From positions 62,001 to 126,000 of the forward strand of contig NZ_NPKN01000002.1 in assembly GCF_008329435.1 (NCBI RefSeq): DNA of 64,000 nucleotides, written 5' to 3'. The notes under the pieces are model-generated. The model ran no database searches, was not told where the DNA came from, and was given only the letters and a program-made list of their open reading frames with translations. The DNA is from Rhodanobacter sp. T12-5 (lineage in GTDB: Bacteria; Pseudomonadota; Gammaproteobacteria; Xanthomonadales; Rhodanobacteraceae). Both the position numbers and the translations under genes were made by a program. This document shows, piece by piece, positions 2,026 to 64,000 of the stretch (its first letter is position 1; every line of letters starts with the position of its first letter).

Positions 2026-4221
2026 TCATTCCGGATGGCCGGTGCCGGCCCCTGCCCCGCATAATTTCTCCAGCAACTCGGCCTGGACGTTGCGCAGGGG
2101 TTCGCCCTCGGGCACGGATGGGCGCAGGTACTGGCCATCGGGCTGCAGCAGCGACGTGCTGCTGTTGTCGGTGAGGTAGAGCTCCAGCGCGCTGCGGATC
2201 CGCTGCTGCAGCTTCTTTCCCTCGATCGGGAAGGCGGTTTCGACGCGGCGATCCAGGTTGCGTTCCATCAGGTCGGCGCTGGACAGGTACAGCCGCGGAT
2301 CGCCGTCGTTGGCGAACCAGTAGGCGCGGCTGTGCTCGAGGAAGCGGCCGATGATCGAGCGCACCCGGATGTTCTCCGAAACGCCCTCGACGCCTGGGCG
2401 CAGGCAGCAGATGCCGCGCACGATCAGGTCGATCTGCACGCCGGCGATGCTGGCCTTGTATAGCGCGCGAATGATCTTCGCCTCGGTCAGCGCATTGACC
2501 TTGAAGATGATCCGCGCCGGCCGGCCGGCGGCGGCGTGCGCGGTTTCCCGCGCGATCAGTTCGAGCAGGGTCTTCTTCAGCGTGAACGGCGCATGCAGCA
2601 GCTTCTTCATGTGCAGCACCTTGCCCATGCCGGTGAGCTGGCTGAACAATTTGTGCACGTCTTCGCACAGCGCCTCGTCGGAGGTGAGCAGGCTGTAATC
2701 GGTGTACAGGCGCGCATTGCCGGTGTGGTAGTTGCCGGTGCCCAGATGCGCGTAACGCACGAGCTCGCTGCCCTCGCGGCGCTGGATCAGCATCAGCTTG
2801 GCATGGGTCTTGATGCCCACGACGCCATAGATCACCATCGCGCCGGCCTGCTGCAGGCGCGAGGCGAGCGTGAGGTTGGACTCCTCGTCGAAACGTGCGC
2901 GCAGCTCTACCACCGCGGTCACTTCCTTGCCGGAACGCGCCGCGTCGACCAGCGCATCGACGATTTCCGAATTGGCATTGGTACGGTAGAGCGTCTGCTT
3001 GATCGCCAGCACCTGCGGATCCTGCGCCGCCTGGCGCAGCAGGTCGACCACTGGCGAAAACGACTCGTACGGATGCAGCAACAGCACGTCCTGCTTGCCG
3101 ATCACCTGGAACACGTCCTCGGCATGCTTGAGCGCCTTGGGCAGCACCGGCGTGAACGGCGGGTACTGCAACTGCGGATAGCTGGCATGGCTGGCGATGC
3201 GGAACAACCGCGCCAGGTTCACCGGGCCGTTCACCTCGTACACTTCCGACTCGGCCAGGCCGAACTGCCTGAGCAGATGATCGATCAGGTCACGCGGACA
3301 GTTGTCGGCCACCTCCAGCCGCACCGCATCGCCGAAGCGACGCGAGTACAGCTCGCTGCGCAGGGCCAGCGCCAGATCCTCGACATCTTCCGGATCGAGC
3401 GTGAGATCGGCGTTGCGGGTCAGCCGGAACTGGTAACAGCCGAGCACCTGCATGCCCGGGAACAGTTCCTCCGCATGCGCATGGATGATCGAGGACAGCA
3501 GCACGTAATTGTCGCCGCCCTCGCAGATTTCCAGCGGCATCTGGATCAGCCGCGGCAGCACGCGCGGCGCCGGCACGATCGCCAGGCCGGAGTCGCGGCC
3601 GAACGCATCGACGCCGTCCAGCCGCACGATGAAGTTGAGGCTCTTGTTGACCAGCAGCGGAAACGGATGGGTCGGGTCGAGTCCGATCGGCGTCACCAGC
3701 GGCGCCACTTCCTCGCGGAAGTAGCGGCGCACCCACAGCTTCTGCTTGTGCGTCCACTGCGTGCGGCGAACGATGCGGATACCGTGCGCGACCAGTTCCG
3801 GCAGAATGCGCTCGTTGAGGATCGCGTACTGCCGTTCGATCTGCCGATGCGCGATCTCGCTGATCTCCGCCAGCGCCCGCTTCGGCGGGATGCCGTCCGG
3901 TCCGATCATCTCGTGATCCAGCGCGATCTGCCCCTTCAGCCCAGCCACGCGGATCTCGAAGAACTCGTCCATGTTGCGCGAGAAGATCAGCAGGAATTTC
4001 AACCGTTCCAGCAGCGGCGCGCGCTCGTCCAGGGCCTGGTCCAGCACGCGGATGTTGAACTGCAGCTGCGACAGTTCGCGGTGGATGTACAGCCGGTTGT
4101 CGGTGAGATCCACCGCCGCCGTCTCGGCATCATTCGCGGCCGGCGCGGAAGCACCGGCCGGCGAGGTCTCGCGGATCAGGCGACTGTTCATCGGTGCATC
4201 GGTTCCGGCAAGGGTTGTCAT
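2026..4221 (-). CDS. ppk1: Polyphosphate kinase 1
   Basis: The 731-residue protein matches PPK1, which reversibly transfers the terminal phosphate of ATP onto inorganic polyphosphate. The N domain begins near residue 42 (RLYIHRELS) and includes the [14 protein letters not shown] segment. The catalytic region has the KTHAKL motif, whose His473 is the expected phosphohistidine, and a GTGNYH motif at 494-499. The length is usual for the family. An internal Met at codon 11 (position 4191) is a possible alternative start, because neither start has a strong Shine-Dalgarno sequence. A short N-terminal extension rich in Ala precedes the conserved core. The gene stands alone between two unrelated units. 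Confidence 0.97.
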
Positions 4222-4335
4222 CCAAGATAGTGCATCATCGGTGATGACAGGATCAGCGCACCGCGGTTGCCCCGCGAGTTTGCGACAGTTTTCTGACCGC
4301 CGGATGACACGGAATTCCCGCGGCAGGCAGGTGTT

Positions 4336-5136
4336 TCATGTATCGCCTGCGCCGCGGAGCAGCCATTCATCCGCTGCCAGGTAGCGGGTGGGTGCCGCAC
4401 CGAGCACGCGCCGGAACGCCGCGGTGAAAGCGCTGGCACTGCTGTAGCCGAGATCGACTGCCACCTGGGTGATCGAGTCGCCGCCAGCCAGCCGGGTCAA
4501 TGCGGCGAGCAGGCAGGCCTGCTGGCGCCATGCGCTGAAACTCATGCCGGTTTGCTGGCGAAACAGGCGGGTGAAACTGCGCCGGCTCATGCCGGCCTTG
4601 TGCGCCATCGCGTCGATGTCGATCTCCAGCGCCGGCGCCGCGATCATCGCGCGGCACAGGCGGGCCAATCGCGGGTCGCGTGGCAGCGGCGTGTTCAACG
4701 GCAGCGCCGGCATCGCGGCGATTTCGTCCAGCAGCAACGCCATCACCCGGCCATCGCGGCCGTCCAGCGCGTACTCGGCCGGCACATCCACGGCCTCCAG
4801 CAGCAAGGCATGCAGCAGCAGCGAGACGCCGATCACCCGGCAACGCACCGGCAACGCAGTGGCGGCCTCGTTGCGCACGTAGGCGCTGCGGGTCGACACG
4901 ACGCCGCTCATGCGCACCTCGTGCGCGACACCGGCCGGAATCCACAGTGCGCGGCGCGGCGGCACCACCCAACTGCCTTCGTCGGTGATCACGGTGACCA
5001 CGCCGGTGGCGGCGTACAGCAGCTGGCCGCGTTTGTGCGCATGGCGCGGCAAGACGTAGTGCGGCGGATAGTCGTTGCCGGTGATGACGATATCGCGCGG
5101 GGTGTCTTCGTAATGGGTGACGCGGGCATTGCGCAC
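4336..5136 (-). CDS. AraC family transcriptional regulator with cupin sensor
   Basis: The 266-residue protein has an N-terminal cupin-like domain (HAHKRGQLLYA near residue 32, and WIPAGVAHEV) and a C-terminal double helix-turn-helix of the AraC type (AHKAGMSRRSFTRLF near 183, then the YSSASAFTAAFRR second helix). The only usable start in this frame is GTG. The gene is divergent from the MFS pump gene with a 126-nt spacer, so it probably controls that pump. Members of this subfamily often regulate an adjacent transporter. The ligand is unknown. Confidence 0.9.
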   Translation of the reverse strand: MRNARVTHYEDTPRDIVITGNDYPPHYVLPRHAHKRGQLLYAATGVVTVITDEGSWVVPPRRALWIPAGVAHEVRMSGVVSTRSAYVRNEAATALPVRCRVIGVSLLLHALLLEAVDVPAEYALDGRDGRVMALLLDEIAAMPALPLNTPLPRDPRLARLCRAMIAAPALEIDIDAMAHKAGMSRRSFTRLFRQQTGMSFSAWRQQACLLAALTRLAGGDSITQVAVDLGYSSASAFTAAFRRVLGAAPTRYLAADEWLLRGAGDT

Positions 5137-49904: not shown

Positions 49905-51605
49905 CTACTTTCCCGCCGCTGCAACCGGCTTCATCATCGCCTCGCGCTTTGCCCGGAACGGGCTGTCGGCATACCACGTCGGCCAGACGCCGGCGTGGCT
50001 CAGGTGCTGGCCCAGTTCGTAGATCGCCTGGGTGTCTTCGAGGATGCCGCTGAGATCCCAGTTCGGATTGAACACGTCGTTCGGCGTGTGATAGCGGTGT
50101 GCGGTGTAATCGGCCGCGGCCTTTTCACCGGCGGCCTTGCCACCAACCAGCAGGTCCAGGCCCGAGCTGGGCAACATCGCCGGCACGCCCGCCTTGGCGA
50201 AGTTGAAATGATCGGAACGGAAATAGAAGCCGTTCTCCGGCGTGGTCTCCGGCGAGATCACCCGGCCCTGCTTCTTCAGCACGCCGGCCAGCAGATCCTC
50301 CAGCTCGGACTGACCCTTGCCGATCACCGTCATGTCGTGAGCGCGACCGATGATCGGCAGCGCATCGACGGCGATATCGGCCACCGTATGGTCCAGCGGA
50401 AACACCGGCCTGGCCGCGTAGTACTGCGAGCCCAGCAGGCCAGATTCCTCCAGCGTCGGCATGAAGAACAGCACGCTGCGCTCCGGTGGCTGTTCCTGAT
50501 GGGCGAATGCATCGGCGATCTCCAGCAGCATGCTCAGGCCGGTGCCGTTGTCGATCGCGCCGCTGTAGACCTTGTGCCCCTTGCGCGACGGATCGGTGCC
50601 CAGGTGATCCCAGTGCGCGGTATAGACAACCACTTCATCGGGCTTGGCGCTGCCCTTGACCATCGCCACCACGTTCTTCGACTCGATATGCCCGATCTTG
50701 CTGTGCAAGGTCATCGAGGCCGTCGCGTCCAGCGGCACCGGCTTGAAACCCGGCTTCGCTGCTGCTTTTTCGAGCTGGTTGAAGTCGAACCCGGCGGCGG
50801 CGAACAGCCGAGTGGCGGCATCGCGCGTGAGCCAGCCGGCCACCGGCAGGCGCGGCGCCGGATCGACGCTGGCCGGCAGGCTCAGTTGCGGGCCGTGGCT
50901 GCCGTTCCTCAGCACCGACCATGGATAGCCGGCCGCCGCGTCGCTGGTATGCACGATGAAACAGGCGCGCGCGCCCTGCAGTGCGGCCTCGGCCCATTTG
51001 TACGGCCAGCGGCCGTAATAGGTCATCGCGCGGCCGTTGAACAGTTTCGGATCGAGCGTGGCGAAACCCGGGTCGTTGACCAGCACGATCACCGTCTTGC
51101 CCTTCACGTCGACGTTCCGGTAATCGTTCCAGTGCCAGTTCGGCGCATCGGCACCGTAGCCGAGGAACACCACCGGCGAATCCTTCAGCGCGACCGTGGC
51201 CTTCGCCTGCAGCGTCTGCGCCACCATGTCGGTGCGGTAGGCCAGGCTGACCTGTTTGCCGTGCGTCGAAATATCCAGCGTCACCCCGGTGTTCAGCAAC
51301 TCGGCCGAATCCGCCGGAACGGCCTGGAACCACGAACCGTGATTGCCCGGTTGCAGTCCCATCCGCTTGAACTGTTCGACCAGCCAGTCGGTGGTGCGCT
51401 GCGCACCCACCGTGCCGGGCTGGCGGCCGCCGAAGGCGTCGGAGCTGAGGGTCTTGTCGAACTGCGCGAAATCGGCGGTATTGATCTGCGGCGCGAGGGC
51501 GACGGTCGATGCCGGCGGATCAGCCGGAGCGGCCGGTGTGGCCGCGTGCAGCGGAGACATGGCCATGCCCATGGCGATCAGTAGAACGGATGTCGCTGTG
51601 CGCAT
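49905..51605 (-). CDS. Secreted M28 family aminopeptidase with PA domain
   Basis: The 566-residue protein has a signal peptide (MRTATSVLLIAMGMAMSPLHA) and a PA insert (residues about 125-275). The M28 zinc ligands are TAHWDHLG, GAIDNGTG (Asp), LEESGLLGSQYY (Glu pair), Asp in the VDALPII stretch, and His in HRYHTPND. It should remove N-terminal residues from peptides in the periplasm. The start at MRTATSV follows AGGA. The upstream open frame overlaps non-coding sequence. Confidence 0.92.
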   Translation of the reverse strand: MRTATSVLLIAMGMAMSPLHAATPAAPADPPASTVALAPQINTADFAQFDKTLSSDAFGGRQPGTVGAQRTTDWLVEQFKRMGLQPGNHGSWFQAVPADSAELLNTGVTLDISTHGKQVSLAYRTDMVAQTLQAKATVALKDSPVVFLGYGADAPNWHWNDYRNVDVKGKTVIVLVNDPGFATLDPKLFNGRAMTYYGRWPYKWAEAALQGARACFIVHTSDAAAGYPWSVLRNGSHGPQLSLPASVDPAPRLPVAGWLTRDAATRLFAAAGFDFNQLEKAAAKPGFKPVPLDATASMTLHSKIGHIESKNVVAMVKGSAKPDEVVVYTAHWDHLGTDPSRKGHKVYSGAIDNGTGLSMLLEIADAFAHQEQPPERSVLFFMPTLEESGLLGSQYYAARPVFPLDHTVADIAVDALPIIGRAHDMTVIGKGQSELEDLLAGVLKKQGRVISPETTPENGFYFRSDHFNFAKAGVPAMLPSSGLDLLVGGKAAGEKAAADYTAHRYHTPNDVFNPNWDLSGILEDTQAIYELGQHLSHAGVWPTWYADSPFRAKREAMMKPVAAAGK

Positions 51606-51764
51606 CGGAGAGTTCCTGGTCTGCGGTATAAGCGACCTTTTTAACGCGACCATCCCTGGCTGTCCATGCAACGGACGATCAAACCTGCTCGATCAGGCCG
51701 GAATCGTTGGTCCCGCGCACCGCGCCATTGCAGTAAATTGGACAGCTCCAGCCCGAGCATGCCC

Positions 51765-52236: not shown

Positions 52237-54006
52237 CTAGACCGTACGCAGCGTGGGCTGGCTGATGTCCCACACGCTGACCCGATTGCGACCCTCGCGC
52301 TTGGCGCGGTACAACGCGTCGTCGGCGTGGATCAGCAACTGACGCAGGTCGTAGCCGGACTGGCCGGTCATCGATACGCCGAAACTGGCGGAGATCGGGA
52401 TCCCGGGAGCGTCCTCGCCGGTGGCGGCGGTCGCGATCGCAATGCGGATCTGCTCGGTGCGGGCAACCACCTGCGCCAGCGTGCATTCCGGCAACAGGAT
52501 GCCGAACTCCTCACCACCGAGGCGACCGAAGATGTCGGTCGAACGCAGATGCGCCTGACACGCCTCGACCGCGCGCCGCAGCACGCGATCGCCCACGGCA
52601 TGGCCATGGGTGTCGTTGACGATCTTGAAATGGTCCAGGTCGACCAGCACCAGGCAGGCGTCGCGTGACGATTTCCTGCAGTACTGCAGTTGCAACTCCG
52701 CCTCGCTGACGAAATGCTGCCGGTTGAAGATACCGGTGAGGCCGTCACGCCGCGCCAGTTTCATGAAGCGCAGTTGCGAGCGCTTGATGCGGTAGGCCCA
52801 GAAGGCGATGAAGGCCAGCACCATCAGCAGGACGACGATGTATAGGCGGCTCGTTTCCTCGGCCTTTTTACCCAGATCCTGCTGTAAGGTGAGTATCTGG
52901 TTCTGCTTGCTCAGCGTTTCGATCTGCAGCTTCTTCGCCAGCACTTGCTGCTTGACGGTCTGATAGGCGAGCGCCTTCGCGCTGATATCGTTCAGATAAC
53001 CCTTGTCCGCCGCCATATATCTTTCGTGGTACGCCAGAGCAGCTTCCATATCGCCTTGTTTCTGTGCGACCAAATAGAGCAAATGAAACGCGGTGCTTAA
53101 TGGCTCAGTGTATTCATTCTTGACGCTGCTATCGATGGCGGCGAGAGCGAATTTATGCGTACGCGCGATGTCACCCTGTTGCCAGTACGCTTGCGCCAAC
53201 AATGCATCAAATTCCGAAATAAGCAGTGGATACCTGGTGCGTTGAGCGTCCTCATAATTTTCTTTTAACAACTTGATGGCAGCTACCTGCCGATCATGCC
53301 GTACGTCCACATTCGCAGCATAAAAACGAATTAAATTGCTGAATACAGGCTCATTCGCCTTCACGCACGCATTAATGCCATCCTGATAAGATTCGTCATC
53401 GGCCTGGAGCTTAGAACTACGGTAGCTTGCTTCAATCTTAAGATATTTACCTTTGCAGTCACCTGCGATGCCATGACTCTCTTCCAGGAACCTGTTGGCA
53501 TAATCCACAGCAAGATCATATTGCCCAGCCTCAGAATATAAAAAAGAAGCAACGCCAAGGCTCTGCGCCCGAGCGTCTTTATCAGTAATCGACGGCAACT
53601 GATCAAGTAATTGACTCAGTCGTTTGAAAGCTTCCTCATAATGCCGACCGAAGACCAGAATGTTTACGGCGGTAACGTTAGCACGGAATCGCAACGTGGG
53701 CTCACTTGATTGGCTGATTACTTCATCCAAAAGCGGAATAGCCGCTTCATACTCACCCGTATAGCCTAGCTGGTAAGCGCTGAGGTAACGCAGATAAAAC
53801 TGCTGCTCCTGAGACAGCTTCATTGTTCCATCGTTTAGCCGCTTAATCAGCGCGGCGAACTTAGCATGATTGGAGGTCTTTATGCTGTCGGCCATCCTCA
53901 GCAGTCGCGATGGGTCATCTGAAGATGAAATGGGCACGACAGCAAAGCCCGCGCCCACCAGAAGAGACATGAGACCAGCAAAAAGCATGTAACGCAGTGC
54001 GTTCAA
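52237..54006 (-). CDS. TPR-GGDEF membrane diguanylate cyclase (borosin operon)
   Basis: The 589-residue protein has an N-terminal signal/anchor (MNALRYMLFAGLMSLLVGAGFA), about 330 residues of TPR-like helices, and a coiled-coil stretch (VKQQVLAKKLQIETLSKQNQ). A membrane helix near residues 405-425 is followed by a complete GGDEF domain. The active-site motif GGEEF is at 497-501 and an inhibitory RxxD site at 488-491, so it should make cyclic di-GMP under product inhibition. The TPR part is predicted periplasmic. It begins 9 nt after the intact precursor gene, so the two are very likely co-translated. Its 5' half is markedly more AT-rich than neighbouring genes. Confidence 0.92.
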   Translation of the reverse strand: MNALRYMLFAGLMSLLVGAGFAVVPISSSDDPSRLLRMADSIKTSNHAKFAALIKRLNDGTMKLSQEQQFYLRYLSAYQLGYTGEYEAAIPLLDEVISQSSEPTLRFRANVTAVNILVFGRHYEEAFKRLSQLLDQLPSITDKDARAQSLGVASFLYSEAGQYDLAVDYANRFLEESHGIAGDCKGKYLKIEASYRSSKLQADDESYQDGINACVKANEPVFSNLIRFYAANVDVRHDRQVAAIKLLKENYEDAQRTRYPLLISEFDALLAQAYWQQGDIARTHKFALAAIDSSVKNEYTEPLSTAFHLLYLVAQKQGDMEAALAYHERYMAADKGYLNDISAKALAYQTVKQQVLAKKLQIETLSKQNQILTLQQDLGKKAEETSRLYIVVLLMVLAFIAFWAYRIKRSQLRFMKLARRDGLTGIFNRQHFVSEAELQLQYCRKSSRDACLVLVDLDHFKIVNDTHGHAVGDRVLRRAVEACQAHLRSTDIFGRLGGEEFGILLPECTLAQVVARTEQIRIAIATAATGEDAPGIPISASFGVSMTGQSGYDLRQLLIHADDALYRAKREGRNRVSVWDISQPTLRTV

Positions 54007-54015
54007 GCTGAAAAT

Positions 54016-54312
54016 CTAATAGCCGGCACGGGCGATAGCGAGTGACGCATCATGCATGGAAATTTCCTCGTCGCCCTGGGCCGGGCTCTCTTCGCTTTCC
54101 TCTTCTCCTTCTTTGACCGGAAACATTGCACAGCAGAATGATGCCTGACCAAGCAATACTTGCAGCTGCGATTGATCCTCGGAAAAAATCGCCTCCCGAA
54201 GTTCCGAGTTCACCTGCTCACCCAACAGCGCAAGTTCCAACTCACTATCCGATGTGTCGCGCAAACGCGCGTCCTGACCGATCCTTTCAAGAAAATTGAT
54301 CACATTCGACAT
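54016..54312 (-). CDS. Borosin-type precursor peptide, intact copy
   Basis: The 98-residue protein has an N-terminal helical leader (MSNVINFLERIGQDARLRDT, residues 1-55). It resembles the borosin-binding domain of the split-borosin precursor SonA, notably the F..LGQDAQL segment and the LxxLxG end. A short putative core follows (about residues 56-67, QASFCCAMFPVK), then an acidic tail (68-85). AGGGGAA sits 5-6 nt before the ATG. It is the last precursor before the TPR-GGDEF gene. The role as methyltransferase substrate is inferred from sequence resemblance and operon position. It was not tested. Confidence 0.75.
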   Translation of the reverse strand: MSNVINFLERIGQDARLRDTSDSELELALLGEQVNSELREAIFSEDQSQLQVLLGQASFCCAMFPVKEGEEESEESPAQGDEEISMHDASLAIARAGY

Positions 54313-54396
54313 GGAATTCCCCTGCTAATTGCCTTGATGTTTAGTAACGGTCAATGGACGTTGCCCCATGCCTGACGCAAAATCCTCCTCATGAAA

Positions 54397-54429
54397 CGTC
54401 AGCGCAGGAAGCAGTTTCTTGCGCTGACG
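54397..54429 (-). terminator. Hairpin downstream of precursor copy C
   Basis: Ten-base arms CGTCAGCGCA / TGCGCTGACG enclose a 13-nt loop and, on the minus strand, are followed by TTTCAT. The same hairpin, diverged, follows copy B. It may attenuate transcription between precursor units. Confidence 0.6.
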
Positions 54430-54440
54430 CTGGTCAGATC

Positions 54441-54517
54441 TCAGGCACACTGCTCAAGATGGGCCTCGCTTTCACGCTCATCGCTGTCGTCACATAAAAA
54501 TGCAGCTAACCGTGCAT
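54441..54517 (-). pseudogene. Internally deleted third precursor copy
   Basis: An AGGAGG ribosome site and ATG are followed after three codons by a stop. The downstream sequence matches the 3' end of copy B (CDDSDERESE, ending HLEQCA plus stop against CDDNDERESE, ending DLKQCA). About three quarters of the coding region has been lost, leaving the start signals fused to the core and tail. The flanking upstream block matches that of the intact copy. Confidence 0.75.
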
Positions 54518-54591
54518 GAAATCCTCCTGATAACTGCTTTAATGTTTATTGGCAGTCGACCAATCCTTAACTACAAAACCCTTCCCTAAAA

Positions 54592-54625
54592 CGTCAGTGC
54601 AAGAAAATTAATTCTTGCGCTGACG
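54592..54625 (-). terminator. Hairpin downstream of precursor copy B
   Basis: Fourteen-base arms (CGTCAGTGCAAGAA / TTCTTGCGCTGACG, one G-T pair) have a 6-nt AT-only loop. On the minus strand it begins 12 nt past the copy B stop. It is homologous to the hairpin at 54397. Confidence 0.65.
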
Positions 54626-54636
54626 TCAGCCGGGTT

Positions 54637-54880
54637 TCAGGCACACTGCTTAAGATCAGTTTCGCTTTCACGCTCATCGTTGTCGTCACAAAAAAACACG
54701 CAACTAACAGTGCTCCCACCCAGCAGAGCTTCCAACTTCTCTTGATCTTTTGCGATGATCGCAGCTTGCACCTCAGGATCAATCTGAGTGTTCACAAGCG
54801 CTAGCTGCACTTCGCCCTGCGAAATGGCGAAGTTGTGCGTCCCGGCCCATCCTTTCAATAAACGCGATCACATTCGACAT
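54637..54880 (-). pseudogene. Second borosin-type precursor copy, frameshifted
   Basis: The reading frame starts MSNVIAFIERMGRDAQLRH, nearly the same as the intact copy. The homologous continuation (ISQGEVQLALVNTQIDPEVQ, then AAIIAKDQEKLEALLGG and core-like STVSCVFFCDD) is in another frame. The break lies near the LRH codons, about 54825. Without it the protein would be about 80 residues, close to SonA length. It lies 23 nt after the GNAT stop. A sequence error is possible, because the rest is well kept. Confidence 0.8.
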
Positions 54881-54903
54881 CCGTATTTTCCCGACAATTG
54901 GTT

Positions 54904-55464
54904 TCAGTTGGTGGTTTGATTCACGTACCACGACGATCGATGCACCGACCCGACACGTTTGGAAAGTACTCCTTTTTCTTGCGCTCCATCCGCGCAAGGC
55001 ATGAAGCCCACGCGGGTATTCAGTCGCAGCATCACGGAATGCTGCGCGGGAAACCGCAAATATATCTCTTGGACGGACGACACGGCAAAAATCCTGTTCA
55101 TCAATGCTGGGAGCGCCTCACTCCCAATCCCCCGCGAACGCGCTTCGCTCTTCAATACTATGCCCACTTCCACTCGCCGCGTATCGGCATCAAATGTCGA
55201 CGTACCGCAGATGCCCAAGCCCTTCTTCTCCGCCTTTTCCTCGATCACCATGAAGCGCGACGCCAGCGTCGGTTCGTGCTGCAGAGCCACGACTTTCCTG
55301 AAACTGTTAGCAGCCTTTTCCGTCGAAAACGGCGGCGCGATGAAACGCATGGTTTCCGGGTCGGTATAGAGGTCGTGATACAGCGCTTCGTCGTCGGCGT
55401 TCAAAGGCCGCAGGCGCAACCTTTCGGTCTCCAGCGCGAGCAGCGACGGATCGAACACATTCAC
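54904..55464 (-). CDS. GNAT family N-acetyltransferase (RimJ/RimL type)
   Basis: The 186-residue protein has the RimJ/RimL-type opening LLALETERLRLRPLNADDEALYHDL and the acetyl-CoA motif KSEARSRGIGSEALPALMNRIF near residue 112, then LNTRVGFM. The GTG start overlaps the methyltransferase stop by 4 nt (GTGA), which shows close coupling with the borosin-type enzyme. It may acetylate the modified peptide or act elsewhere. There is no direct evidence for either. The precursor genes follow after 23 nt. Confidence 0.85.
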   Translation of the reverse strand: MNVFDPSLLALETERLRLRPLNADDEALYHDLYTDPETMRFIAPPFSTEKAANSFRKVVALQHEPTLASRFMVIEEKAEKKGLGICGTSTFDADTRRVEVGIVLKSEARSRGIGSEALPALMNRIFAVSSVQEIYLRFPAQHSVMLRLNTRVGFMPCADGAQEKGVLSKRVGSVHRSSWYVNQTTN

Positions 55465-56279
55465 TCGGCGACAGCCTTGGCTGCCACTGCACGGTCCAGC
55501 GCGGCCAGCCTCGCGTGGATTTCAGGATCGGGTTGCATTGCGCGCGCGGGCGGGAGCACCACGGTGTCGGCCATGCCGATGTCGGCGTGCGGCAGTTCGC
55601 GCAGGGTCATCCGCTCGATCCGCGGTTGCTGGATCGGCAGCGTGGTGGTGCGATAGATGATGGCTTCGTGGTCCAGCGGGTAGTCGCGCGCCAGTACGTC
55701 GACCAGTACCTGCCGGTATGCCGCACCGGTGCTGAAGCGCGCCAGCGACTGGTCGCCGGCCAGGCCTACCTGCCACAGCACCAGGTAGGCGGTGGGATCG
55801 ATACGGCGCTGGTACAGCATCAGCTGGCTAGCCTCGAAATGCAGGCAGCCATAGGTGCCCGGATCGATGCCAAGGTCCGCGTAGAGGCAGTCCTCGGCAG
55901 AGATGCCCGGTTCCATGTGCGCGCGGTAACCCTCGCTGCGGGCGACCGCGATGGCCTTGTGCGGTGCCCAGGCGAATACGCCAGGATGCCCGTAGAGCGC
56001 AGCGCAAACCTGCCTGCCCGCGCGTACTTCAGTCAGCATGGCATCGACCATCTGATGGTAGGTCTGCATGCGCGACTTGCCTTCGCGGTAGTACGGCTGC
56101 AGGCTGCGCACGTCGGCGTTCATCTGTTTCAGCCACAGCTCGACGACGCCGTCGGAAACGCCCGCGAACACCACGTCTGCCTGCTCGATATAACTGCGCG
56201 CCAGCGGCCCGATGTGCGAGCCCAGGGTCATGCCGATGCCTACGCAGACCAGGCTGCCGTTGGATTGGGTTGCGTCCAT
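55461..56279 (-). CDS. Borosin-type peptide backbone alpha-N-methyltransferase (SonM/OphMA-like)
   Basis: The 272-residue protein has the tetrapyrrole-methylase fold: GSLVCVGIGMTLGSHI at the N-terminus, LYGHPGVFAWAPHKAI at 95-110 and PGISAEDCLYADLGIDP at 124-140, then YGCLHFEAS and VLWQVG. These stretches match the borosin enzymes OphMA and SonM rather than cobalamin or sirohaem methylases. The catalytic Tyr-Arg-Tyr set of that family aligns with Tyr63/64, Arg70 and Tyr74 (YYREGKSRMQTY). There is no C-terminal core peptide, so this is the split type acting on a separate precursor. It is the first gene of the operon; the next (GNAT) overlaps by 4 nt. Confidence 0.85.
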   Translation of the reverse strand: MDATQSNGSLVCVGIGMTLGSHIGPLARSYIEQADVVFAGVSDGVVELWLKQMNADVRSLQPYYREGKSRMQTYHQMVDAMLTEVRAGRQVCAALYGHPGVFAWAPHKAIAVARSEGYRAHMEPGISAEDCLYADLGIDPGTYGCLHFEASQLMLYQRRIDPTAYLVLWQVGLAGDQSLARFSTGAAYRQVLVDVLARDYPLDHEAIIYRTTTLPIQQPRIERMTLRELPHADIGMADTVVLPPARAMQPDPEIHARLAALDRAVAAKAVAE

Positions 56280-57247: not shown

Positions 57248-59014
57248 TCAGGCAGATTCCGGACGATTCGCCACCCTGACCCGGTTGCGGCCTTCGCGCT
57301 TGGCCTGGTACAGCGCCTCGTCGGCGTGGATCAGCAGTTGGCGCAGCTCATAGCCGGAACGAGTGGTGACGGTCACACCGAAGCTGGCGGAAATCGGAAT
57401 GCCCGGAGCGTCCTCGCCGGTCGCAGCGGTAGTGATCGCCTCGCGGATCTGCTCGGCGCGCGCGACGGCCTGCTCCAGCGTGCACTCGGGCAACAGGATG
57501 CCGAACTCCTCGCCCCCGAGGCGACCGAAGATATCGGTCGAGCGCAGATGCTCCTGGCACGCCTCGACCGCGCGTCGCAACACGCGATCACCCACGGCGT
57601 GGCCGTGGGTGTCGTTGACGATCTTGAAATGGTCCAGGTCGATCAGCACCAGGCAGGCACCGTGCGATGATCTCCGGCAGTGCTGCAGCAGCAACTCGGC
57701 CTCCTTGACGAAATGCTGCCGGTTGAAAATGCCGGTGAGGCCATCGCGTCGGGCCAGCTTCATGAAGCGCAGTTGCGAACGCTTGATCTTGTAGGTCCAG
57801 AAGGCAATCGACGCCAGCACCAGCATCAGCAGGACGATATGCAGCCGGCTGGTTTCCACAGCTTTCTCGTTGAGCTCTTGCTGCAACGTGAGGATCTGGT
57901 TCTGCTTGTTCAGCGTGTCTATCTGCTGCTTTTTCGCCAGCACCTGCTGCCTGGCTATCTGATAGGCGAGCGCCTTGGCGCTGAGTCGACTCATGTAGCC
58001 ATCGTGGGCAGCGACATATTTTTCGAGATTGGCCAACGCACCATGGCGGTCGCCTGCTTTCTTGTCGACTTCGTAAAGCACTTGATAGGCGTTGGCCGTC
58101 GACTCCGCGTACGGCCTGTTGGCATTGTTGGCCACGGCGCGGTTGGCAAATTTCGCTGCGGACGCAAGGTCATTGCGCTTCCAGTAAGCCATGGCGAGCG
58201 TGGCCTCGAACTCGGAAATCAGGGGCGGATAGCCTGCTTCCAGAACCTTGGGGTAACTCGCTTGCAGCACACGGATGGCCGACTCAAGGTGGCCCTGTCG
58301 CATGTCGAAACTCGCCAGCAAGTGCTGAAAGCCGAGAGAAAACAGCGTGTCGCCTGCCTTTTTGCATGCTTCCGTGCCATCGCGGAACTGATCGACGGGA
58401 AGCTGCGCACTGCCGCTTTCAAACAGCGCATTGGACTTGTAGAGCCAGCCCCTGCATGCACTTGGGGCGTCAGTGCTTTCCTTGATCATCTGATCGGCAT
58501 AACGAACGGCCGTATCGTATTGGCCAGCCTCCGTGTACAACTGTGCCGCGACACCGAGCCCCTGGATGCGAACGTCGTGCCCCTTCATTTGCGGCAGTTG
58601 GGCCAGCAACGGATTCAACCTGGCAAAAGCTTCTTCATAGCGGGATTCGCCCACCAAAATATCGATCACGTTGGCGCTGGCGCGAAACGCCAGGACAGGA
58701 TCCGCCGTTTGACCGGCGATCTCTTTCAACGCCGGCAGGGCGGCGGCGAAGTTGCCCGCAAAGGCGACCTGCCGGGCCATAAGGTAACGTCGATGCAGTT
58801 TCTGTTGCGGTGAAAGCTTCATCGCAACCTCGTCGAGCCGACGCATGAGCTCGTTGAGCTCGTCGTGATCGATCGGTTTGACGCTTTCAGCTTGTCTCAG
58901 CAACTGCGCAGGATCGTTGGATACGGGCGCAGTAGAAGCCACCGCGCCCGCAATGAATAAAAGCAGAAGCGCGCCGCCTGGGAACACTGACCTGCATCTG
59001 TTCGCCCGCTGCAT
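57248..59014 (-). CDS. TPR-GGDEF membrane diguanylate cyclase, second copy
   Basis: The 588-residue protein has the same layout as the gene at 52237: N-terminal anchor, TPR-like region, coiled coil (QQVLAKKQQIDTLNKQNQIL), membrane helix and complete GGDEF domain. GGEEF is at 500-504 and the inhibitory RSTD site at 491-494. The catalytic half is close to identical to the first copy, while the TPR half is clearly diverged. A short borosin-leader-like ORF ends 55 nt upstream. It should make cyclic di-GMP in response to a periplasmic signal. Confidence 0.92.
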   Translation of the reverse strand: MQRANRCRSVFPGGALLLLFIAGAVASTAPVSNDPAQLLRQAESVKPIDHDELNELMRRLDEVAMKLSPQQKLHRRYLMARQVAFAGNFAAALPALKEIAGQTADPVLAFRASANVIDILVGESRYEEAFARLNPLLAQLPQMKGHDVRIQGLGVAAQLYTEAGQYDTAVRYADQMIKESTDAPSACRGWLYKSNALFESGSAQLPVDQFRDGTEACKKAGDTLFSLGFQHLLASFDMRQGHLESAIRVLQASYPKVLEAGYPPLISEFEATLAMAYWKRNDLASAAKFANRAVANNANRPYAESTANAYQVLYEVDKKAGDRHGALANLEKYVAAHDGYMSRLSAKALAYQIARQQVLAKKQQIDTLNKQNQILTLQQELNEKAVETSRLHIVLLMLVLASIAFWTYKIKRSQLRFMKLARRDGLTGIFNRQHFVKEAELLLQHCRRSSHGACLVLIDLDHFKIVNDTHGHAVGDRVLRRAVEACQEHLRSTDIFGRLGGEEFGILLPECTLEQAVARAEQIREAITTAATGEDAPGIPISASFGVTVTTRSGYELRQLLIHADEALYQAKREGRNRVRVANRPESA

Positions 59015-59069: not shown

Positions 59070-59174
59070 TCACCATCCCTGCTCTTGTCTTCGGCGCGTC
59101 AGCGCCTCCGGATCAGCATGACGCCACTGCGCGTCCTGGCCGAGACCTTCAAGAAAATCGATCACGTCGAGCAT
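59070..59174 (-). CDS. Short borosin-leader-like ORF
   Basis: The 34-residue ORF reads MLDVIDFLEGLGQDAQWRHA and then DPEALTRRRQEQGW. Its first 19 residues match the leader of the precursor at 54016 (V.I.FLE..GQDA..R), and GLGQDAQ matches SonA. An AGGAGA ribosome site lies 7-8 nt upstream of the ATG. The ORF lacks the second half of the leader and any core, so it is either a truncated precursor or a reduced binding peptide. It is followed by the second TPR-GGDEF gene, as in the borosin operon. Confidence 0.65.
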   Translation of the reverse strand: MLDVIDFLEGLGQDAQWRHADPEALTRRRQEQGW

Positions 59175-59758: not shown

Positions 59759-60874
59759 TCAACCAATCGCATCGGACCCCCACAGCGCCTCCATGCTTAC
59801 CGACAGCTCGAACTCGTCGAGGTCGACGACTTCGGCCACCGAGTGGGCCAGATCGTCGCCACGGCGGCGGATGGGGATGTTGATGCGCAGGCCGTCGTGG
59901 GTGGTGATCGAGGCGACCTTCGGCGTGTGGCCGTTCGCGCCGCGGTGGGTAACCACGGCGATGCTGCCGTTGCGCAGGCGCACGCCGGTGCCGGGCGGAT
60001 AGACGCCGAGCGTCTTGATGAACAGCGCGGTGATGTCCCGCGCCACCGCCATGCCCTCGTTGAGGAACAGCCAGCGCAGCGCGACGTTCGGGGTCATGGC
60101 CGGGCGGTAATGGCGATGGGATACGCGCGCGCAATAGACGTCGGCCAGTACCAGCAGCTGGGTCGGCAAGCTCAGCGCCTCGACCGTCTTGCCGGCCGGA
60201 TAGCCGCTGCCGTCGGGACGCTCGTGATGATCCAGCACGATCTCCAGCCACAGCTGATCGCTTACGCCGTATTCGCGCAGGATCGCGACGCCTTGTTCGC
60301 AGTGGCCGCGCACCGCCTGGCGCTGCTGCTCGTCCAGCAGTCCGTCGAGGGAGTGCAGCTTTTTCTGCAGCTCGTACATGCCGATGTTCATGGTCAGCGC
60401 AGCCGCCACCATGGCGGCCAGCTCGGTGGTCGTCAGCTTCATCGCGATGCCGATGATGTTGCACACGATGGCGGCGTTGACCGCGTGGCGAATCGTGTAG
60501 CTCCCGTCACGGCGCATCAGTACGGTGGCCAGCGCCAGGTCCGGGTTGGCCTTGCACGCGCGCTGCAGCATGCCGACGATGCGCAGCACGTCAGCGGAAA
60601 AGTCGGCCGGCGATCGGTTCGTGTGCAACGTGGTCAGGTGCTGGCGTGCCGCCAGCACCAGCCCCAGCGGCGACAGTTTCGCGGGTTCGTCCGTTGTATC
60701 CGCAGCGGGCGGCCCCTTCGCTTCCAGCGCGTTTTGCGTCAGCCGCTCAAGTTGCGTGGCGGTGGCGATGACATGGCCTTCCCGCAGCAACAGCTTGCCC
60801 TTGCCGTCATAGGCGTCGCAGGGCAGCGGCTGGCCCAGCTTGAGTTCGGACGGATGGATGCTGCGTCTGGTCAC
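59759..60874 (-). CDS. HD-GYP-type protein with degenerate HD motif
   Basis: The protein (about 371 residues from the GTG at 60874, or 379 from a GTG at 60898) has an N-terminal segment like DUF3391 and an HD-GYP domain. HD-GYP motifs RHAVNAAIVCNIIG and DHHERPDGSGYPAG are present. The central LHDIGK motif is replaced by LTMNIGM, so the HD pair is Met-Asn (residues 170-171 in the longer form). Phosphodiesterase activity on cyclic di-GMP is therefore doubtful. No strong ribosome site distinguishes the two GTG starts. Confidence 0.85.
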   Translation of the reverse strand: MTRRSIHPSELKLGQPLPCDAYDGKGKLLLREGHVIATATQLERLTQNALEAKGPPAADTTDEPAKLSPLGLVLAARQHLTTLHTNRSPADFSADVLRIVGMLQRACKANPDLALATVLMRRDGSYTIRHAVNAAIVCNIIGIAMKLTTTELAAMVAAALTMNIGMYELQKKLHSLDGLLDEQQRQAVRGHCEQGVAILREYGVSDQLWLEIVLDHHERPDGSGYPAGKTVEALSLPTQLLVLADVYCARVSHRHYRPAMTPNVALRWLFLNEGMAVARDITALFIKTLGVYPPGTGVRLRNGSIAVVTHRGANGHTPKVASITTHDGLRINIPIRRRGDDLAHSVAEVVDLDEFELSVSMEALWGSDAIG

Positions 60875-61127
60875 GTCAGCCCCGGCCGGCGGGTGCACGA
60901 AGCTGCGCCAGCCAGCGTGTTGGTTGCTGCTTCATGATGTGACCCCTTCCGCGCTGCGTCCCCGCGCAGCGACCCGGCAGGCTGGCGATCCTGCACATGA
61001 CTGATCGGCCGATCCGGCCAAAACTTTAGCGCCAACGCCGGTGCTGGCGCCGCGCCGGATGGGCGCGTTTTCGCCGTCGTCATTGGCGCTAGACTGACCC
61101 GAATGTGTTCACCCCAAGAGGTTGGAG

Positions 61128-61803: not shown

Positions 61804-64000
61804 ATGGGTTTTCGCGTTCGACTCGTCGCTTTCCTGGTCGCCATCCTGGTGATCGTGCAGGGGCTGACCTGGCTGCTCGTGTTCGAAGTCACCCGGCACG
61901 AGTCGATCAAGGTAGGCGAGCGCCAGCTTGCGTCGGCCGCCGAGGTTTTCGTCAACCAGCTGGACGACATCTCGTTGCGCATCGCCAACAGCGTGCAGGT
62001 GCTGGCGCTGGATTACGCGCTGCGCGAGTCGATCGCCGAGCATGACCGCGCCACGGTGCTGTCGGCGCTGCGCAACCACGGCCGCCGGGTCGGCGCGGCG
62101 CGCATGCTGCTGATGGATCTCGACGGCCACATCAGCGCCGACACCGGCAGCGCCGATCCGGACGGCAGGCCCACCGGCAACCATGCCTTGTTTCCGTTTC
62201 CGGAATTGCTCAACGGCGTGCTGGAGCATCCGGTCGCCGCCGTGGTGGCGATGGACGGTCATGCGTACTGGATGGTGGTGGTCACGGTGAATGCGCCGCA
62301 GCCACTGGCGCTGATCGCTGCCGGCATTCCGATCGACGACCATCTGCTGGCGAACATGCAGCGGCTGTCCACGCTGCCGAAGAACATCGAGCTGATCGCC
62401 TCGACCGATCGCGGGCCATGGAAAGTGGTGGCTCGGGGCGACCGCCACGTGCCGCTCAGCGCGCCGTTGTTGCGCGACGGCAAGGCGCTGCCCGCAGCGC
62501 CGGTGCTGGTGAAAGTGGGCGGCCGCGAATACGTGGCGCTGGCGCGCCCGTTCGGACGCTCGCCGGGCAACGTGGCCATGGCAGTGGTGATCGGCTATTC
62601 GCTGGACGAGGCGCTGGGGCCGTTCCGCTCGGTCACCGCGACCTGGCTGCTGCTGGTGCTGCTCGGTCTGGCCGTCGGCGCGGTGGGTGCGTGGCTGATC
62701 GCGCGCGGCGTGGCGCGGCCGCTGGAGGAGCTGGCGGACACTGCGGCACGCATCGCCAGCGGCGACTACACGCCGCCGCCGCCGCGTCGCCGCCACGATG
62801 AGCTGGCGCGCCTGGCCGATGCCTTCACGCGCATGCTCGGCGCGATCCGCGAGCGCGAGGAACGCATCCGCTTCCAGGCCGAACACGACGCCATCACCGG
62901 TACGCCGAACCGGGTCGCCGCCGAAGCGATCGTGCAGCGCGACCTGGCGACGACGGCGCGCCATTCCGGCGCGCTGCTGATGATCGGACTGGCCCGATTG
63001 CCCGACATCGTCAAGACCATGGGACACACGATCAGCGACCACCTGATGCACGACGCCAGCGTGCAGCTGCAAACGCTGGCGCCTGGCCAGCTGGTCGCCT
63101 GCGCGACCGACAGCCAGCTGCTGCTGTGGCTGCCCGGCGCAGGCCGCAGCGAAGCGATCACGCTGGCGTTTCGCGTGCGCGATGCGCTGGGCCGGCCGTG
63201 GCGCGAGGCCGAGCTGTCGATCGACGCTGCACCGGCGATCGGCATCGCGCTGCACCCGCAACACGGCGCGGACGCCAGCGCGTTGCTGCAGCACGCCGAA
63301 GTGGCGCTGTTCGCGGCGCTCGGCCATGAGGATCCGGTGTCATTCTACGAACCGGCCACCGATCCGCACCGCCCGGCACGGCTGGCCTTGATGGGCGAAC
63401 TGCGCCAGGCGCTGGACGGCGACCAGCTGAGCATTGCCTACCAGCCGCGGCTGGACATCGCGATGGACCGGATCGAAGGGGTCGAAGGGCTGGTGCGCTG
63501 GAACCATCCGCTGCACGGGCCGATGGGTCCGGACGAGTTCGTGCCGCTGGCGGAGAAGACCGGCAACATCCGCCATCTCACCCGCTGGGTGCTGGCCAGC
63601 GGCATCGCGCAGCTGCGCCAATGGATGGACGAGGGCCGCGAGCTGCGGCTGGCGCTCAACCTGTCGGCGCGCGATCTCGATGACGCCGACCTGCCACGGC
63701 GGGTGGCCGCGCTGCTGGGCGCACACGGCGTGCCGGCACGGCGCCTGGTGCTGGAGGTGACCGAAAGCGCGGTGATGGCCGAGCCGGACGCCGCGCTGAA
63801 AGTCTTGCAACGGCTGGCCGCCCAGGACATCGACATCGCCATCGACGATTTCGGTGTCGGCCAGTCCTCGCTGGCCTACCTGCGGCGACTGCCGGTGCGC
63901 GAGCTGAAGATCGACAAATCCTTCGTCGCCCGGCTTGGCGAGGACAGGGAGGATCAGGCGATCGTGCGCGCGATCGTCGACCTCGGTCACCGGCTCGGCT
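61804..64000 (+). CDS. Sensor GGDEF-EAL protein (3' end beyond window)
   Basis: At least 732 residues are present, with no stop before the window end. An N-terminal membrane helix and a periplasmic sensor domain (residues about 30-280) precede a second helix, a HAMP domain (ARPLEELADTAARIASGDY), a GGDEF-like domain and an EAL domain. The GGDEF signature is replaced by ATDSQLLL, so cyclase activity is unlikely. The EAL domain reads EGL but keeps the catalytic Glu, and has NLSARDL, LEVTES, IDDFGVGQSSL and LKIDKSF, so phosphodiesterase activity is plausible. GGAG lies 7 nt before ATG. It is co-oriented with the cupredoxin-like gene. Confidence 0.9.
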   Translation, partial: MGFRVRLVAFLVAILVIVQGLTWLLVFEVTRHESIKVGERQLASAAEVFVNQLDDISLRIANSVQVLALDYALRESIAEHDRATVLSALRNHGRRVGAARMLLMDLDGHISADTGSADPDGRPTGNHALFPFPELLNGVLEHPVAAVVAMDGHAYWMVVVTVNAPQPLALIAAGIPIDDHLLANMQRLSTLPKNIELIASTDRGPWKVVARGDRHVPLSAPLLRDGKALPAAPVLVKVGGREYVALARPFGRSPGNVAMAVVIGYSLDEALGPFRSVTATWLLLVLLGLAVGAVGAWLIARGVARPLEELADTAARIASGDYTPPPPRRRHDELARLADAFTRMLGAIREREERIRFQAEHDAITGTPNRVAAEAIVQRDLATTARHSGALLMIGLARLPDIVKTMGHTISDHLMHDASVQLQTLAPGQLVACATDSQLLLWLPGAGRSEAITLAFRVRDALGRPWREAELSIDAAPAIGIALHPQHGADASALLQHAEVALFAALGHEDPVSFYEPATDPHRPARLALMGELRQALDGDQLSIAYQPRLDIAMDRIEGVEGLVRWNHPLHGPMGPDEFVPLAEKTGNIRHLTRWVLASGIAQLRQWMDEGRELRLALNLSARDLDDADLPRRVAALLGAHGVPARRLVLEVTESAVMAEPDAALKVLQRLAAQDIDIAIDDFGVGQSSLAYLRRLPVRELKIDKSFVARLGEDREDQAIVRAIVDLGHRLG

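Follow-up and report, generated by a model that had tools for sequence, protein, structure and literature searches.

A split borosin operon with a downstream TPR-GGDEF sensor: a possible methylated-peptide signal linked to cyclic-di-GMP

The window analysed here, a stretch of 64,000 nucleotides from Rhodanobacter sp. T12-5 (genome of 3.98 Mb in 19 contigs), carries on its minus strand a locus that we assign by homology to the type IV (split) borosin operons, in which methyltransferase and precursor are separate adjacent proteins. It ends in a sensor diguanylate cyclase with a TPR domain. The methyltransferase, the precursor and the TPR sensor form a cassette that is conserved across relatives. 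Since these relatives retain all three genes, in some cases with another output on the sensor, the sensor probably detects the peptide as a signal. Our preferred reading, held with moderate confidence, takes the N-methylated core peptide as the ligand for the TPR sensor encoded beside it, a sensor with a swappable output; we infer the methylation, release and binding of this peptide.

Results

A SonM-type methyltransferase and SonA-like precursors

Transcription on the minus strand would run through a methyltransferase gene (55461-56279, 272 aa), a GNAT-family acetyltransferase gene (54904-55464; Pfam Acetyltransf_3, 1.2e-20), a frameshifted precursor (about 54637-54880), a decayed precursor remnant (54441-54515), an intact precursor of 98 aa (54016-54312) and a TPR-GGDEF gene, hereafter cyclase A (52237-54006). 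The first two genes overlap by 4 nt. If TTG is the true start codon of cyclase A, the gene begins 9 nt past the stop of the precursor; an ATG is found 18 nt downstream of that TTG. A sequence-only reading of this DNA had proposed the same genes on this strand, the overlap included, with one intact and two broken small-protein genes, and all of them were recovered.

When compared with PDB sequences by phmmer, the methyltransferase matched SonM (7ltc_A) at E 1.2e-78; OphMA-type enzymes of fungi followed, with E values of about 1e-53 to 1e-48. This bears out the kinship with SonM and OphMA suggested earlier. It is identical to SonM at 129 of 252 aligned residues (51%) and matches Pfam TP_methylase at 4.6e-18. 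According to the available part of PMC8429565, activity or cofactor binding is lost when Y58, R67, Y71 or Y93 of SonM is mutated; all four are kept in the window protein, as Y64, R70, Y74 and Y96, and each is kept in 154-155 of 157 methyltransferase open reading frames (ORFs), some genomes being counted twice. These homologies identify the 55461-56279 product as a SonM-type borosin methyltransferase. Cobalamin or sirohaem methylases as best homologues, with no small-protein neighbour, would have refuted the sequence-only reading; SonM ranks far ahead of the cobalamin type, and a small-protein neighbour is present. We rejected a cobalamin or sirohaem methylase identity: a single cobalamin-type PDB match was obtained, at 7e-3, and the NCBIfam matches were all far under their cut-offs.

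The small proteins had been described as carrying a SonA-like leader, and this held. In a PDB search with the intact precursor, 7 of 7 matches were SonA chains, with E values of 0.02-0.1 and, in the alignments shown, no gap from residue 1 onwards; a 46-row precursor profile recovered seven SonA rows (E 9e-5 to 5e-4) along with two further rows, at 0.045 and 0.99. AlphaFold2 predicted five helices (residues 2-13, 15-18, 22-31, 36-43 and 47-53), the remainder being unstructured or of low confidence, with a mean predicted local distance difference test (pLDDT) score of 68.8. As far as the available part of PMC8429565 goes, the borosin-binding domain of SonA comprises residues 1-53 in a five-helix arrangement, and its discussion gives L63 and I65 as the methylated residues. 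The window precursor is thus divided into a leader (residues ~1-53), a core (~57-65, ASFCCAMFP) and an acidic tail; in SonA register it has M63, F64 and P65, the SFCCAMFP segment sitting where the methylated residues of SonA lie. Across 46 aligned precursors the leader is conserved, the proline directly after the short core (P65) is kept in at least 90%, and the core is variable. A net acidic tail was found in 67 of 85 precursors of our named set, which consists of 80 loci kept out of 547 relatives.

Residues 1-18 and 21-74 of the frameshifted precursor align to the intact copy, the reading frame changing between the two stretches (tblastn), and both frames match the leader hidden Markov model (HMM). 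The other broken copy, the third precursor of the operon, retains core and tail only; by local alignment it is a decayed copy of the 3' end of the frameshifted gene. A second precursor type, with a core region around PQISQAP and a GHEEDEP-like tail, was seen at loci L071, L075, L129 and L184 (L numbers designate loci). It is paired with its own methyltransferase and sensor clade in the first three, and L184 has a methyltransferase fragment only.

The trio is a conserved cassette

In 78 of the 80 named methyltransferase loci a TPR-GGDEF gene follows downstream in the same orientation, and the other two (L093, L110) stop at a contig edge. An ORF/HMM count placed such a gene beside 76 of 82 methyltransferase ORFs, all six misses having less than 2.5 kb downstream. 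Likewise, in a set of 40 loci from relatives, several genomes of which recur in the named set, 40 of 41 methyltransferase ORFs had a downstream TPR-GGDEF gene and the one miss was a contig end. The gap from precursor to GGDEF ORF, calculated from longest-ORF starts, has a median of 9 nt and does not exceed 60 nt in 128 of 137 pairs, a count in which some genomes appear twice. The chance of one GGDEF neighbour in the Rhodanobacter genome is about 1.4% by simple arithmetic from its 28 GGDEF matches. The near-universal occurrence, the tight spacing and this low chance led us to reject coincidence.

The GNAT gene behaves differently. The sequence-only reading had singled out the pairing of GNAT, GGDEF and borosin genes; the association with a diguanylate cyclase is real, but a GNAT relative was detected by tblastn in only 20 of the 80 named loci. 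It was therefore dropped as a core part, and the GNAT gene is a recurring accessory outside the core cassette. Acetylation of the lysine after the core proline is a candidate role; L152 and L165 have a GNAT gene without that lysine.

We then considered the order of genome G404, which includes a relative with a methyltransferase 93% identical to SonM. A methyltransferase match was obtained in 71 of 295 genomes, one of them only at 2e-4, and we chose 40 loci, favouring the best-scoring matches in the first 20 and weaker ones in the next 20. Twenty-five of these have a GGDEF output, ten a histidine kinase (L205, L212, L213, L216, L218, L219, L220, L221, L222 and L226), three a TPR protein without output domain (L201, L224, L225), and at two, L215 and L227, no TPR sensor was recognised. 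A TPR protein stands beside the methyltransferase in 37 of the 40, in 35 by the sensor profile and in L205 and L212 by Pfam. The L199 cyclase is visible only as a 42-aa GGDEF ORF, with no sensor-profile match. At L209 (5886-9590) the methyltransferase and a GNAT gene (Pfam) occupy one strand, with a precursor-like ORF and a TPR-GGDEF gene divergent on the other; the same-strand GGDEF scored there in the ORF/HMM count is a different protein.

The SonM relative itself (L191) shows methyltransferase, precursor and TPR-GGDEF in that order, and the trio is retained in other gene orders (L200, L208, L211, L230) and in other families. Thus, the GGDEF association is near-universal in this methyltransferase clade, the SonM/SonA-like locus included, and no local oddity. 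Among ten class-level loci, GGDEF was found in two and a TPR hybrid kinase in one (L173). In a phylum-wide draw, 24 of 398 genomes had a methyltransferase match, and 9 of the 26 matches were weak (E 9e-7 to 7e-4); of four such loci fetched, a TPR-GGDEF gene adjoins the methyltransferase in three and is absent from L231, which belongs to another class.

Two loci of these sets deserve a separate word. L231 (2840-6364, minus strand) encodes a 1174-aa ORF with a borosin-type methyltransferase domain near its N-terminus, a long further region and an acidic end. L140, in a record titled Candidatus Eremiobacteraeota, has the cassette, and its methyltransferase groups with Dyella acidisoli; it is probably a misassigned contig.

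Anatomy of the sensor and its paralogues

Cyclase A (Pfam GGDEF 3e-41, plus TPR) consists of an N-terminal hydrophobic segment (residues 8-26), a TPR domain, a transmembrane (TM) segment (389-407) and a GGDEF domain with GGEEF at 497 and RSTD as its RxxD I-site. On these motifs it is assigned as a diguanylate cyclase, with cyclic-di-GMP synthesis as the predicted activity. The TPR domain is predicted to be periplasmic. Cys184 and Cys214, invariant across 86 aligned sensor rows, would suit a periplasmic disulfide.

The same traits recur among relatives: of 86 GGDEF ORFs at named loci, 84 read GGEEF, one GGDEF and one neither, and the I-site is present in 69 of 85. A hydrophobic segment precedes the GGDEF domain in 84 of 84 named sensors, with an N-terminal segment in 63 of 84 at the threshold used; at the same threshold, the order-level sensors gave 18 of 19 and 11 of 19, respectively. 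The TPR half of cyclase A was modelled by AlphaFold2 at a pLDDT of 94.5. When this model was compared with the PDB by Foldseek, Rap or NprR pheromone receptors made up 15 of the 50 matches listed (TM-score 0.45-0.62, E 6e-5 to 5e-4). The predicted fold suggests a peptide- or protein-binding TPR superhelix and nothing more specific.

Upstream of the methyltransferase gene lie a LigT gene and then a second TPR-GGDEF gene, cyclase B (57248-59014, minus strand; 588 aa, Pfam GGDEF 3.1e-44), a paralogue 58% identical to cyclase A with the same N-terminal and pre-GGDEF hydrophobic segments and with cysteines at 187 and 217. Ahead of it, at 59070-59174 on the minus strand, sequence and translation reveal a leader-only precursor remnant of 34 codons. 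Neither cyclase B nor this remnant had been mentioned in the sequence-only reading. A third sensor paralogue lies elsewhere in the genome, at C8:94358, with no methyltransferase nearby. Overall, one module of this genome looks intact, the 54016 precursor with cyclase A; cyclase B and the third paralogue are open, and the precursors before them are broken. The region around the third paralogue (L181, C8:91500-97500) has the TPR-GGDEF gene at 2826-4631 and apparent debris of a type B precursor at about 2490-2766; methyltransferase and precursor seem to have been lost there and the cyclase kept.

The sensor half follows the methyltransferase while its output changes

The TPR sensor was also used as a query without its GGDEF domain. 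In the 295-genome order set, the sensor half was found in 48 genomes at E 1e-8, and 48 of 48 are among the 71 methyltransferase-bearing genomes. Among 60 relatives, it was found in 47 at E 1e-3; once two weak matches (2.4e-5 and 6.1e-5) are set aside, the remaining 45 coincide with the methyltransferase-bearing genomes. Thirty-six of the 60 belong to one genus, and among the remaining 24 the same 10 genomes hold sensor and methyltransferase.

The output attached to this half varies. At L219 the sensor domain is fused to a histidine kinase (HisKA), in an ORF cut by the contig end; it matches the cyclase-sensor profile at E 2e-65 and keeps the cysteine spacing of 30. L201 encodes two TPR-only proteins, both keeping the Cys pair. 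The kinase and TPR-only sensors of the other methyltransferase clade give weak profile matches (E 2e-9 to 0.95, L212 being absent from the list) and have no Cys pair at spacing 30, so that they may represent a separate recruitment. In most kinase loci the sensor is immediately preceded by a small precursor-like ORF, picked by eye; the leader HMM missed most of these ORFs, and none was seen by eye at L213 and L221. On a methyltransferase tree of 77 rows, the GGDEF label requires 5 changes versus 20.5 in shuffles, and a supported 20-row clade without GGDEF holds the kinase loci except L219, plus loci with neither output.

We also compared sensors with their own precursors across 78 modules, including 10 named loci with two precursor/sensor modules; cyclase B of the window was left out, and some precursors, read from a longer ORF start, were extended at the N-terminus. 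The identity of sensors correlated with that of their precursors at r 0.604 for core plus tail, 0.741 for the leader and 0.787 for the whole. When partners were swapped within loci, the mean r fell to 0.534, 0.702 and 0.730, with 1, 12 and 7 of 1000 swaps as high, respectively.

Discussion

Proposed mechanism and alternatives

By homology with SonM and SonA, the methyltransferase would bind the five-helix leader and methylate amides of the peptide backbone within the hydrophobic core, immediately ahead of the conserved proline. Leader and acidic tail would then be removed and the N-methylated core would leave the cytoplasm for the periplasm, N-methylation itself perhaps conferring protease resistance and membrane permeability. 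There the core peptide may bind the predicted periplasmic TPR domain of the cyclase encoded directly downstream, and binding would alter cyclase activity, coupling the extracytoplasmic peptide level to cyclic-di-GMP. The M28 peptidase encoded at 49905-51671 of the window (Pfam 6.6e-43) is a candidate processing enzyme; such a gene lies near many loci of close relatives, the set in which it was sought.

Several observations weigh against this reading. The topology comes from hydropathy only, with an N-terminal segment below threshold in 21 of 84 sensors. The best Foldseek matches are eukaryotic LGN, which binds proteins, and TPR folds are generic. The precursor has no export-like hydrophobic segment by hydropathy (maximum over 19 residues 1.15; no signal-peptide predictor was run), and no protease or exporter gene lies between methyltransferase and sensor in the window, though no systematic search for either was made; this leaves a gap in the peptide-release step. 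Many loci are related and hence not independent. As a general rule the association falters among distant methyltransferases: seven of the ten class-level loci (L174-L180) have neither a leader-HMM match nor GGDEF within 4 kb, and at L174-L179 no TPR sensor was recognised by eye beside the methyltransferase. In the order set, 23 of the 71 methyltransferase genomes lack a sensor match at E 1e-8. A cyclase can also persist without an adjacent peptide gene, since TPR cyclases stand apart from the methyltransferase not only at C8:94358 but also at L182, L183 and L186-L188, where a 6.5-kb stretch has no methyltransferase or precursor match and the methyltransferase lies elsewhere in the genome. Finally, the pairing signal is equally explained by co-copying of precursor and sensor and does not single out ligand matching.

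The sensor could instead answer another cue (surface, nutrient or envelope stress) and share the operon for co-expression, the borosin acting elsewhere, for example as an antimicrobial or in metal binding. We regard this as unlikely, yet worth keeping in view: shared transcription alone would be expected to give tight spacing, some TPR cyclases stand without methyltransferase and precursor, and a paralogue in the Rhodanobacter genome retains its cyclase beside a decayed precursor. However, it is the sensor half and not the output that is confined to methyltransferase-bearing genomes (48 of 48 in the 295-genome set), most kinase loci retain a small precursor-like ORF immediately ahead of the sensor although its output domain has been replaced, and sensor and adjacent precursor core covary. 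Moreover, no transporter or immunity gene lies between methyltransferase and sensor in the window.

The whole precursor, methylated, might also dock on the sensor as a small regulatory subunit, its methylation serving as a readout of S-adenosylmethionine (SAM) status. The leader as a folded five-helix domain (AlphaFold2, and the available part of PMC8429565), the frequent net acidic tail (67 of 85 named precursors) and the lack of a protease gene between methyltransferase and sensor in the window would all fit. Nevertheless, we find it distinctly improbable, for the TPR domain is predicted to be periplasmic, whereas the precursor carries no export-like segment and must first meet the SAM-using methyltransferase. 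That the neighbourhood is incidental linkage in one conserved chromosome region, as local synteny in close relatives and the LigT, NfeD and M28 genes near many loci might hint, is very improbable indeed, given the trio kept in other gene orders (L200, L208, L211, L230) and families, a sensor half found only in methyltransferase-bearing genomes of the 295, and a TPR protein beside the methyltransferase in 37 of the 40 chosen order-level loci.

Returning to the peptide as ligand of the TPR sensor, a broader proposal can be made, on which we are evenly divided: gammaproteobacterial split borosins would be ligands of an unnamed family of cell-cell (or self) signalling, with a periplasmic TPR receptor, an interchangeable output (diguanylate cyclase, histidine kinase or none), a peptide released without dedicated protease or exporter, and one methyltransferase serving several peptide/receptor pairs in multi-module operons. 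If true, this would be Gram-negative peptide signalling by an unusual chemistry, tied to cyclic-di-GMP, a messenger in biofilm formation, and the peptide and its receptor would have been identified at the same time.

Relation to known systems

The SonM/SonA pair of Shewanella oneidensis MR-1 is already solved, and split borosins, their methyltransferase and their leader have already been published. As described in the available part of PMC8429565, this type IV split borosin resembles the window in its separate methyltransferase and precursor, its active-site residues and its five-helix leader, the two methyltransferases being 51% identical. The Shewanella-type locus L191 has its TPR-GGDEF gene directly after the precursor, as in the window. 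Unlike SonM/SonA, the window has a Cys/Phe-rich core, an acidic tail past the conserved proline, an extra GNAT gene and two TPR-GGDEF paralogues. The words acetyltransferase, diguanylate and GGDEF do not occur in the main text of PMC8429565.

To the knowledge of the sequence-only reading, a pairing of GNAT plus GGDEF with a borosin was undescribed. For GGDEF this is not supported: in PMC11395268, the Figure 1 legend lists GGDEF as a domain in borosin architectures, the only occurrence of the word in that paper. Priority for the GGDEF link probably belongs to Imani 2022, Cho 2022 and Lee 2024, the papers likeliest to treat such neighbours. The literature search, which did not reach these three likely key papers, returned no text tying borosins to sensors, nothing on kinase neighbours or a receptor reading, and no later paper stating a function of these peptides.

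The TPR superhelix of the RRNPP receptors (Rap, NprR) is among the nearest PDB folds of the window sensor (15 of the 50 matches listed), with LGN ranking higher. RRNPP receptor genes adjoin their peptide genes; the receptors are cytoplasmic, occur in Gram-positive bacteria, respond to unmodified peptides and carry a helix-turn-helix or a phosphatase/Spo0F-binding part. The window sensor, in contrast, has a TPR-TM-GGDEF architecture that falls outside this definition: its TPR domain is predicted to be periplasmic and is linked through a TM segment to GGDEF (a kinase in relatives), and a backbone-methylated peptide is expected.

Vibrio vulnificus RcbB is, like the window sensor, a TPR-GGDEF cyclase. 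According to the available part of PMC12282931, its TPR domain represses its own cyclase and an operon partner, RcbA, relieves the repression; by analogy, it offers a precedent in which a TPR domain governs cyclase activity. Unlike in the window, the partner is another TPR protein, and methyltransferase and borosin are never named in PMC12282931.

Further observations

Two of the distant borosin-like methyltransferases, at L176 (7928-8815) and L177 (4535-5767), are followed by a major-facilitator gene (Pfam MFS_1), and no TPR sensor was seen there. Within the window, other candidate cyclic-di-GMP genes lie close to the operon. An HD_5 protein (59759-60898, minus strand; Pfam 1.2e-19), less than 1 kb upstream of cyclase B, is possibly a cyclic-di-GMP phosphodiesterase, and a HAMP-GGDEF-EAL protein, another cyclic-di-GMP gene, begins at 61804 on the plus strand and runs past the window end at 64000.

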